Shown piece by piece: positions 4,517 through 21,622 of a stretch of DNA of 26,367 nucleotides. The position numbers and the translations under genes are program-made. The notes below the pieces were generated by a model, which did no database searches, was not told the origin of the DNA, and was given only the letters and a program-made list of their open reading frames with translations. Location: the IMG/VR virus record IMGVR_UViG_3300030109_004498, positions 1 through 26,367 of that record; one strand, 5' to 3'. The stretch comes from a virus. The stretch's first letter is position 1. The number at the start of each line of letters is the position of its first letter.

Positions 4517-4726
4517 ATGAGTTTTTTAAGAGAAATGCTTTCTAGCGATGCTAAAATCTCTAGTAAAAGATTTGTTGGTTTTATGGCATTCTTTATGTTG
4601 ATTTGTAGTTGGGGTGCTGACACCTTTTCTGCATTTGAAGTTAAGGATAAGATATTAGAATGCTTTATGTACATTTCAGTCGTTGGACTAGGTGTTACAG
4701 CAGCCGAAAAATTCGGTAAAAAATAG
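4517..4726 (+). CDS. Small two-helix membrane protein (holin candidate)
   Basis: A 69-aa protein starting nine bases after the tube stop, with AAGAGGA as ribosome-binding site. After a short polar N-terminus (MSFLREMLSSDAKISSKR) there are two hydrophobic segments: about residues 19-36 (FVGFMAFFMLICSWGAD) and 47-63 (ILECFMYISVVGLGVTAA). It ends in a basic tail, EKFGKK. Size and layout (two transmembrane helices, charged tail) resemble small phage holins, which perforate the inner membrane at lysis. Similar small SSKRF-type two-helix proteins occur near tail genes in other phages and are often annotated as holins. No endolysin gene is visible nearby, so the function stays tentative. A weak AT-only hairpin (4728-4749) lies between it and the next gene. 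Confidence 0.6.
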   Translation: MSFLREMLSSDAKISSKRFVGFMAFFMLICSWGADTFSAFEVKDKILECFMYISVVGLGVTAAEKFGKK

Positions 4727-19565: not shown

Positions 19566-19661
19566 AAAAATATTTGTATTTGGTTTTATAACCTTATACT
19601 TATTATCAAATGGTTACTATTGTAACTTAAAAATGCTAATTAAATAATAGGAGAATAAATA

Positions 19662-20420
19662 ATGGATATTAATTCAATTCGTAAGCGTCTTAATCAACTT
19701 CAAACAACAAACAATAGGACTTCAAACCTATGGAAACCTCAACCAGGAAAACAAGTAATTAGAGTGTTACCTTATAAACATAATAAGGATAATCCTTTCA
19801 TTGAATTGTTCTTTCATTTTGGTTTGAATAATAAAACCTATCTTTCACCAATCACATATGGTCGTCCTGACCCAATTGAAGAGTTTGCTCAAAAACTTAA
19901 AACAAGTGGGAACAGAGAAGAGTATCAGATGGCTCGTAAGCTGGAATCCAAAATGAGAACTTTTGCTCCAGTCATCGTTCGTGGTGAAGAAAGTCAAGGT
20001 GTTCGTTTTTGGGGATTTGGTAAGACGGTCTATCAAGAATTACTTTCTGTAATAGCAGATCCAGACTATGGTGATATCACAGACGCTGTTAGTGGTCGTG
20101 ATGTATCAGTAGAATTTATTACTGCTGAAGAAAGTGGTGCTTCATTTCCTAAGACTACTATTCGTGTTAAACCTAATCAGACTCCAATCTCAGAGGATAA
20201 AGCACAATTAGAAGGTCTCTTAGAAAATCAAAAAGACATAAATGAATTATATCAGGAACTATCGTATGAAGAACTTACAGATGTTCTGAACCAATGGTTA
20301 AATCCAGAGGCTTCAGATGATGAAGAAAAGAGTTCTGATACTTCAGTTTCCGCAGTTGTTGCTGAATCAGCGAAAGTTGAAGATGCAAGTGCTGCATTTG
20401 ATGAGTTATTCAATAAGTAA
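19662..20420 (+). CDS. Single-stranded DNA-binding protein (T4 gp32-like)
   Basis: This 252-aa protein coats single-stranded DNA during replication and recombination. It shows the gp32 layout: a short basic N-terminal segment (IRKRLNQLQ) for cooperative binding; a core starting LWKPQPGKQVIRVLPYKHN with ELFFHFGLNNKTYLSP and RFWGFGKTVYQELLSV; and an acidic, Ser/Ala-rich C-terminal tail from about residue 215 that ends FDELFNK, where partner proteins bind. It contains no cysteine, so the zinc site of T4 gp32 (one His and three Cys) is absent; the loop reads YGRPDPIEEF instead. It has its own strong ribosome-binding site (AATAGGAG). The 96-base gap upstream is AT-rich and may hold a promoter. A structured element follows it. 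Confidence 0.88.
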   Translation: MDINSIRKRLNQLQTTNNRTSNLWKPQPGKQVIRVLPYKHNKDNPFIELFFHFGLNNKTYLSPITYGRPDPIEEFAQKLKTSGNREEYQMARKLESKMRTFAPVIVRGEESQGVRFWGFGKTVYQELLSVIADPDYGDITDAVSGRDVSVEFITAEESGASFPKTTIRVKPNQTPISEDKAQLEGLLENQKDINELYQELSYEELTDVLNQWLNPEASDDEEKSSDTSVSAVVAESAKVEDASAAFDELFNK

Positions 20421-20428
20421 ATAAAGTG

Positions 20429-20515
20429 TAGTGGGTGTTGAAGCCAACACTAATAAAACCGAGTGTGTGCATCCAGTATAGGAATAAAAGCCGGACACAC
20501 CCACTATTTAAATAG
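20429..20515 (+). promoter_or_regulatory. Structured RNA element between SSB and RecA genes with two exclusive folds
   Basis: Four segments are mutually complementary. A is TAGTGGGTGTTG (20429-20440), B is CAACACT (20445-20451), C is AGTGTGT (20462-20468) and D is ACACACCCACTA (20495-20506). Fold 1 pairs A with D in a perfect 10-bp stem (20429-20438 with 20497-20506) and lets B pair with C (20447-20451 with 20462-20466). Fold 2 pairs A with B (20435-20440 with 20445-20450, AAGC loop) and C with D (20463-20468 with 20495-20500). Directly after D comes a 12-base palindrome CTATTTAAATAG (20504-20515) that overlaps the recombinase ribosome-binding site AGGAG (20514-20518). No long T-tract follows, so translational control or RNA processing fits better than termination. 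I recognise no known riboswitch family. Confidence 0.55.
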
Positions 20516-20524
20516 GAGAATTAT

Positions 20525-21622
20525 ATGTCAGTTAAAGAAGATTTAGCTGGAGTTCTTGCCGATTCTTTAAATAAGAAATTTAAAGATTATAAGGTTGCGT
20601 ACTTCTTAGATGGTGCTAATCCAACACCCACCGATATAAAAGAATTTATCTCTACCGGTTCAACAATGTTGGACTTAGCTATTTCAAACAAAGCTAATGG
20701 TGGTATTGCTGTCGGTAGGATTACAGAATTAAATGGATTAGAGAGTAGTGGTAAATCATTAGTGGGTGCACATCTACTTGCAGAGACACAGAAAAAAGGT
20801 GGTGTCGCTGTTTATATAGATACTGAAACTGCTGTTAGTGAAGATTTTCTTGAAGTGATAGGTGTGGATATAAGTAAAATGTTATATCTACACTTAGAAA
20901 CCGTAGAGGATATATTCGAAGCTATCGAAGAGATTGTAACAAAGGTGAGAGAATCAGATAAGGATAGGTTAGTAACTATCTTAGTTGATTCATTAGCTGC
21001 TGCTACAACGAAAGTTGAGTTAAATGCCGACTATGATAAAGATGGTTGGGCTACATCAAAAGCTATTGTAATATCTAAAGCTATGAGAAAGATTACTCAG
21101 ATGATTGGTAGACAAAGAATAGGTTTAGTATTTACAAATCAGTTAAGACAAAAATTAGGTGTAATGTTTGGAGACCCTTGGACAACAAGTGGTGGAAAAG
21201 CATTACCATTTCATGCTTCTACTCGTATCCGTCTGAAGAATAAAGGACAGATAAAAGATAGTAAGAAAAATGTCATCGGAATGACTATTCTCGCACAGGT
21301 TATAAAGAATAGATTGGGTCCTCCGCTGAGAAAAGCGGAGTTCCCTCTCTACTTCGAAAGTGGTATTGATGATGAGGGTAGTTGGTTGCAAGTTATGAAA
21401 GATCACGGATTAGTAAAAGTAGGTGGTGCTTGGTATACTATGACAGACCATAATGGAAATGAAATGAAGTTTCAATCTAAAGATTGGTCTGAAAAGTTAG
21501 AAGATAAAGAGTTTAAATCATATTGTTACCAACTCATTTGTGATAAAGTGATACTAAAATATAACAAAGCTGAAATCGGCATCGATGATGTAGAAATAGA
21601 TGATGAGAGTATGGATGAGTAA
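20525..21622 (+). CDS. recA: RecA/UvsX-like recombinase
   Basis: A 365-aa ATPase that forms filaments on single-stranded DNA and drives strand exchange; in T4-like phages this also starts recombination-dependent replication. Walker A is GLESSGKS (71-78). The IDTE segment (98-101) carries the Glu matching the catalytic Glu of RecA, and Walker B is VTILVD (150-155). The DNA-binding loop region TNQLRQKLGVMFGDPWTTSG (204-223) is clearly RecA-type. It has Trp219 where RecA has Glu (GDPE/N-x-T). The C-terminus, with GAWYTM and QSKDWSEKL, is more UvsX-like and ends in an acidic tail (VEIDDESMDE). AGGAG lies seven bases before the ATG, next to the structured element. The last bases overlap the nuclease gene. 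Confidence 0.93.
   Translation: MSVKEDLAGVLADSLNKKFKDYKVAYFLDGANPTPTDIKEFISTGSTMLDLAISNKANGGIAVGRITELNGLESSGKSLVGAHLLAETQKKGGVAVYIDTETAVSEDFLEVIGVDISKMLYLHLETVEDIFEAIEEIVTKVRESDKDRLVTILVDSLAAATTKVELNADYDKDGWATSKAIVISKAMRKITQMIGRQRIGLVFTNQLRQKLGVMFGDPWTTSGGKALPFHASTRIRLKNKGQIKDSKKNVIGMTILAQVIKNRLGPPLRKAEFPLYFESGIDDEGSWLQVMKDHGLVKVGGAWYTMTDHNGNEMKFQSKDWSEKLEDKEFKSYCYQLICDKVILKYNKAEIGIDDVEIDDESMDE

Follow-up and report, generated by a model that had tools for sequence, protein, structure and literature searches.

To our knowledge, phages have yielded only a few kinds of small structured RNA in which an unpaired core is conserved; several of these have proved functional, namely ribozymes, cage RNAs, and antitoxin-like RNAs. 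The ToxI RNAs, the antitoxins of type III systems, consist of short tandem repeats beside a toxin gene; they form H-type pseudoknots and have phage counterparts. The RNA characterized here, designated class 1, resembles ToxI in being a small H-type pseudoknot RNA but differs in that it is single-copy and closed by a stem (P1). A single unit is present in the window (the whole 26,367-nucleotide stretch analyzed, part of a 27.6-kb virus record) and in 40 of the 41 positive records, the remaining record containing two copies. The nearest neighbors of the window copy encode a single-strand DNA-binding protein (SSB) and RecA, and no toxin gene was noticed there.

Autoregulation of T4 gp32 involves a pseudoknot located in the 5′ leader of its own gene (gene 32), and the operator pseudoknot of T4 and RB69 gene 32 is followed by UUAAA repeats (PMC535899). 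The window locus is similar in combining a phage SSB gene with a pseudoknot RNA. However, class 1 RNA lies behind the SSB stop codon (7 nt downstream of it in the window) rather than in a 5′ leader, contains a different pseudoknot, and also occurs beside unrelated genes. Because of this position, and because most distinct contexts lack SSB, SSB autoregulation was rejected for the window element.

GOLLD (RF02032) is a phage non-coding RNA located downstream of Met-tRNA (PMC12286853). Several phages have class 1 positioned after tmRNA/tRNA-Met and before GOLLD; nevertheless, GOLLD often exceeds 800 nt, whereas class 1 is a separate RNA of approximately 55–110 nt across the family. A promoter usually separates the two, and class 1 also occurs without GOLLD.

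Theta ribozymes are small, pseudoknotted, HDV-like ribozymes found beside phage tRNA genes, and they feature a nested double pseudoknot with the cleavage site at G1 (PMC10879173). Class 1 is comparable as a small pseudoknotted RNA adjoining phage tRNA genes, but it has one 3-bp pseudoknot within a closing stem instead of a nested double pseudoknot. Given this difference in topology and the lack of an Rfam match, an HDV-like or other Rfam ribozyme identity was rejected.

Locus organization and conserved fold

The element occupies the gap at 20421–20524 within a phage replication block, between the SSB gene and a recombinase gene (recA) (Table 1). Covariance model R1 matches the window at 20431–20504 with 83.3 bits and an E-value of 1.9e-20, the window sequence being one of the 33 used to build R1. 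Upstream of SSB, at 19575–19630 of the window and in relatives, a conserved promoter-like sequence (TTGTATTT...GATACTTATTAT) is followed by a conserved GGTTAC...GTAAC, possibly representing a phage-specific promoter and leader hairpin.

Table 1. Features of the SSB-recA locus in the window and tRNA-Ala genes in the corresponding gap of relatives (A–D, segments named in the initial annotation; A1, alignment of class 1 sequences)
Feature	Position	Strand	Basis
SSB gene	19662..20420	+	phrog_1192, E 5.7e-22
UvsX/RecA-like recombinase gene (recA)	20525..21622	+	phrog_97, E 3.2e-68
Whole class 1 RNA element, 80 nt	20428..20507	+	covariance model R1; P1 extends outward to 20428/20507
P1 5′ strand (A)	20429..20438	+	two-sided compensatory changes at 8/8 modelled P1 pairs
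Junction TGAAGCCA, near-invariant	20439..20446	+	alignment A1
P2 5′ strand (B)	20447..20451	+	two-sided changes at 5/5 P2 pairs
P2 loop AATAAAACCG, last three bases forming the pseudoknot 5′ strand	20452..20461	+	invariant in A1, partly by search design
P2 3′ strand (C)	20462..20466	+	compensatory changes
Conserved GTG following P2	20467..20469	+	alignment A1
Variable insert, short optional hairpin P3	20470..20486	+	alignment A1
AAAGCCGGAC, with CGG at 20492-20494 as pseudoknot 3′ strand	20487..20496	+	alignment A1 and compensated variant L664
P1 3′ strand (D)	20497..20506	+	compensatory changes
recA Shine-Dalgarno AGGAG, unpaired in the conserved fold	20514..20518	+	sequence
tRNA-Ala (TGC) in the SSB-recA gap of close relatives	L087 4126-4199; L089 4958-5031; L024 1276-1349; L025 4905-4978		

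The initial annotation had described four segments (A–D) that could pair in two mutually exclusive ways, and had taken this arrangement for the 1-2-3-4 topology of an attenuator or riboswitch. All four segments are present in the window, where A:D forms a perfect 10-bp helix and B:C also pairs, and the alternative A:B (6 bp) plus C:D (6 bp) can likewise be drawn, sharing bases with A:D plus B:C. The window fold energy of A:D plus B:C (−18.9) is narrowly ahead of that of A:B plus C:D (−17.7), and folding of the window sequence compared with shuffles gave a z of −2.26, with 2 of 200 shuffles at least as good.

Comparison of homologous gaps, the covariance check that had been recommended, was based on alignment A1, which comprises 33 diverse class 1 sequences. 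P1 (A:D) and P2 (B:C) displayed two-sided compensatory changes at all 13 pairs. Cells of P1, P2, and the pseudoknot were paired in 98.8% of cases versus 68.1% in shuffles, and the covariation score of A:D plus B:C was 0.766 versus 0.166, none of 500 shuffles being as good; this signal was lost when the partner strands were slid out of register. In total, more than 140 cells provide compensatory support for the RNA. By contrast, the alternative A:B plus C:D was paired in 69.3% of cells, barely over shuffle level, and it fails in most class 1 members outside the SSB-recA group. Only GTGT-rich members form it well, and energies favor A:D plus B:C save in a few of these (e.g., L095, L020, and L439), exceptions obtained with nested-fold energies that leave the pseudoknot uncounted. 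The two-state attenuator reading thus fails because A:B plus C:D is not maintained beyond that group of members; for this half of the proposal, pairing was lost in homologous gaps, an outcome that the initial annotation itself had named as refuting. Judging from these comparisons, the fold consisting of A:D and B:C is under strong selection.

A pseudoknot had been overlooked. The CCG at the end of the P2 loop faces the CGG preceding the 3′ strand of P1, and the resulting 3-bp helix forms an H-type pseudoknot with P2. CCG:CGG is invariant across A1, partly because the search patterns demanded it. In a scan for non-CCG loop endings, the sole structured variant was L423/L664, in which CCU faces AGG as a compensated pair; only one such variant emerged because the core is nearly invariant. 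This core contains approximately 25 near-invariant bases, while P1 varies freely and the hairpin is optional, the P3 insert being missing from L020, L194, and L404. On the evidence of its conserved sequence and covarying pairs, class 1 is a new RNA family with a predicted H-type pseudoknot closed by P1.

In the Rfam search that had been proposed, no Rfam 15 family reached the gathering cut-off over the element, either in the window or in relatives; at a relaxed E-value, the element yielded only sub-threshold chance matches, such as mir-1473 and PsrR1. No Rfam ribozyme family matched class 1 RNA in the window or relatives, and no description of class 1 RNA was found in the literature.

Genomic distribution and contexts

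Many viral contigs, some of them large, were found to carry class 1 by sequence patterns and model R1. Every positive record of at least 40 kb (up to 289 kb) carries exactly one copy; because many contigs are fragments, the copy number is a lower bound. The exact core had 0 matches in 395 Bacteroidota and 398 Proteobacteria genomes (793 in total), and searching 296 Bacteroidota genomes with the model, a weak test in which only 16 candidates were scored per genome, returned nothing. A core pattern scan of genome contigs combined with a pairing filter produced no convincing class 1 member among the matches listed. Similarly, blastn in INPHARED detected no class 1, and no cultured carrier was found; a weak match in Flavobacterium phage immuto was discarded as false.

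The contexts of class 1 are diverse, gene names outside the window being our reading of the sequences rather than database matches. In mRNA contexts, the RNA is usually located 2–25 nt behind a stop codon. It lies between an exonuclease gene and DnaB (L427 and L439), between a ubiquitin-like (UBL-like) gene and an E2-like gene (L388, L393, L419, and L434), downstream of a JAB/JAMM-like gene with a 294–298-aa product (L389, L395, and L398), or behind a gene for a small cysteine-rich protein (L214). The ubiquitin/ThiS-like protein of the second group has 77–98 aa, most copies ending in ...VTSGC, and the downstream E2-like protein of 500–650 aa contains the E2-like cysteine motif HPHI(x)4GEPCLGxW and had no INPHARED match. 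In L200, class 1 forms part of a 5′ leader, with a promoter upstream and an ORF starting downstream, and on inspection the copies in L162 and L662 may belong to longer non-coding RNAs.

In tRNA-island phages, class 1 follows tmRNA and/or tRNA-Met and in several of them precedes GOLLD. The cassette tmRNA/tRNA-Met/class 1/promoter/GOLLD recurs in L194, L219, L250, L660, L663, and similar records, which represent large phages with Bacteroidetes-type promoters. Among 29 non-mRNA members, P1 starts approximately 5 nt after tRNA-Met in 8 loci. The Bacteroidetes promoter consensus is TTTG-N19-TAnnTTTG, and a promoter of this type (TTTG-19/20-TAnnTTT) is found upstream of P1 in 14 of the 29, its −7 box ending 4–17 nt before P1, while 1 of 33 mRNA-embedded members scores as high; the control was a simple composition shuffle and promoters scoring 8 are indecisive by themselves, their fixed spacing and position being the stronger argument. 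Most own-promoter copies have a second promoter behind the class 1 RNA. The window copy indeed lacks a T-tract, as had been stated, and no consistent T-run follows P1 across members; an ordinary intrinsic terminator was dropped on this ground.

The SSB-recA slot in relatives

Among viral-contig relatives of both proteins, 148 distinct SSB-recA junctions were collected. Class 1 was present in 46, a class 2 pseudoknot RNA (GGCTGT..TTGTAYGCC core) in 35, a class 3 RNA (ACTGYTNG...TCTGG core) in 8, class 2 and class 1 in tandem in 2, and a tRNA-Ala gene in 4; in a further 38, the gap was 40 nt or longer and lacked classes 1–3 and tRNA-Ala, many having simple GC-rich hairpins, and 15 had a short or unusual gap without an element. 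These counts are not natural frequencies, since classes were assigned by simple patterns and loci were partly picked by class 1/class 2 pattern scans. The hairpins in some relatives are followed by TTTT, and Mel-JY01 and immuto possess the same gene pair without an element.

Class 2 has a P1 of 8 bp with 6 compensated pairs and a pseudoknot with one compensated pair, and in class 3 compensated pairs occur in P1 and in an inner hairpin (nine sequences). Models R2 and R3 detected single copies only. No tested record combined two classes, the tandem class 2 plus class 1 gaps being the only break in exclusivity; as the slot holds a single RNA, this exclusivity carries little weight by itself. In L853 (about 1350–1900) and L620 (about 1200–1600), class 3 lies inside an apparent longer non-coding RNA with no Rfam match, and a tRNA-like T-arm (GGTTCGAATCC) was observed near the end of the L853 non-coding region. 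Additionally, a manA RNA (RF01745, 73 bits) is located at 4597–4797 of L143, just upstream of a relative's SSB gene.

A candidate RNA gene and alternative explanations

On balance, and with moderate confidence, the most likely reading of class 1 is that of an RNA gene; its folded product would function as a free molecule, probably acting in trans. This reading is based on its single copy, its unrelated neighbors, its own promoters, and its position in RNA-gene clusters, in addition to the covarying structure; the promoter or cluster position was observed at the 14 promoter-linked and 8 tRNA-linked loci but not at the window locus, where the copy occupies the SSB-recA gap. In the predicted fold, P1 closes the structure and encloses an H-type pseudoknot whose unpaired core is strongly conserved. 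Genome organization suggests that the RNA would be released as a separate molecule and may act in trans, partnered by a protein or another RNA. Its transcript would in some phages start at a promoter of its own or immediately after tRNA-Met; in the window phage, the RNA would be carried in the SSB transcript, like the tRNA-Ala gene in some relatives.

Certain features count against an RNA gene: plain hairpins fill the same slot in close relatives, one copy resides in a 5′ leader, two may lie within longer non-coding RNAs, and closeness to stop codons also suits a 3′-end element. It is possible, although doubtful, that class 1 acts in cis at the 3′ end of the upstream transcript as a highly stable cap, which would block 3′ exonucleases or partly terminate transcription, such that SSB mRNA stays abundant relative to recA. 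Its location a few nucleotides behind stop codons and its replacement by plain hairpins keep this explanation alive, and the frequent second promoter behind class 1, together with the GC-rich hairpins (some with TTTT) and tRNA in the slot of relatives, is also consistent with it. However, a signal acting in cis should recur, so one copy per genome argues against it; loci with a promoter directly before P1 have no upstream message to protect, the U-tract behind P1 is not consistent, and a stem barrier needs no conserved unpaired core of approximately 25 bases.

A role of the element in RNA processing is possible. That class 1 is a self-cleaving ribozyme cutting a tRNA trailer or the SSB-recA transcript, on the model of the HDV-like theta ribozymes located at the 3′ ends of phage tRNAs, is unlikely. 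The compact pseudoknot with an invariant core and variable stems would suit such an activity, as would the restriction to phages, the unrelated neighbors, and the copies directly behind tRNA-Met, for which theta ribozymes provide a precedent (PMC10879173); yet no Rfam ribozyme family matches, and own-promoter copies have little or nothing upstream to cut.

It is very improbable that class 1 is an attenuator or riboswitch-like recombinase leader sensing SSB, RecA, or a metabolite, despite its position 17–18 nt before the recA start and the two folds drawable in the window, since the alternative fold is unconserved, the same gene pair lacks the element in Mel-JY01, immuto, and other short gaps, and recA is missing from most other contexts. 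The palindrome CTATTTAAATAG that had been reported to reach the Shine-Dalgarno sequence does so in the window but is not conserved, close relatives having CTATTTAACAG, CTATCTAACAG, or CTTTTAATTGG, and a switch sequestering this sequence was dropped for that reason. Control of recA initiation is unsupported because neither the palindrome nor any sequestration is conserved, because a plain hairpin, a tRNA, or no element at all is found at this gene pair in relatives, and because the same RNA elsewhere precedes unrelated genes, promoters, or no gene. The suggestion that SSB or the recombinase binds here is likewise given no particular support, because most distinct contexts contain neither gene.

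Significance

The comparison replaces an attenuator interpretation that was plausible but incorrect. Class 1 is a single-copy RNA outside Rfam, backed by more than 140 compensatory cells, and it appears in SSB-recA gaps, other protein operons, and tmRNA/tRNA-Met/GOLLD cassettes. As a tentative extension of the RNA-gene reading, phages might exchange at least three structurally unrelated pseudoknot RNA families (classes 1–3), one per genome, in the same slot; these would act in trans, for example by decoying or inhibiting a host factor or defense, and would have diversified like other phage counter-defense genes. The two other pseudoknot families at the same site offer a ready allele set for testing how phages use such RNAs.
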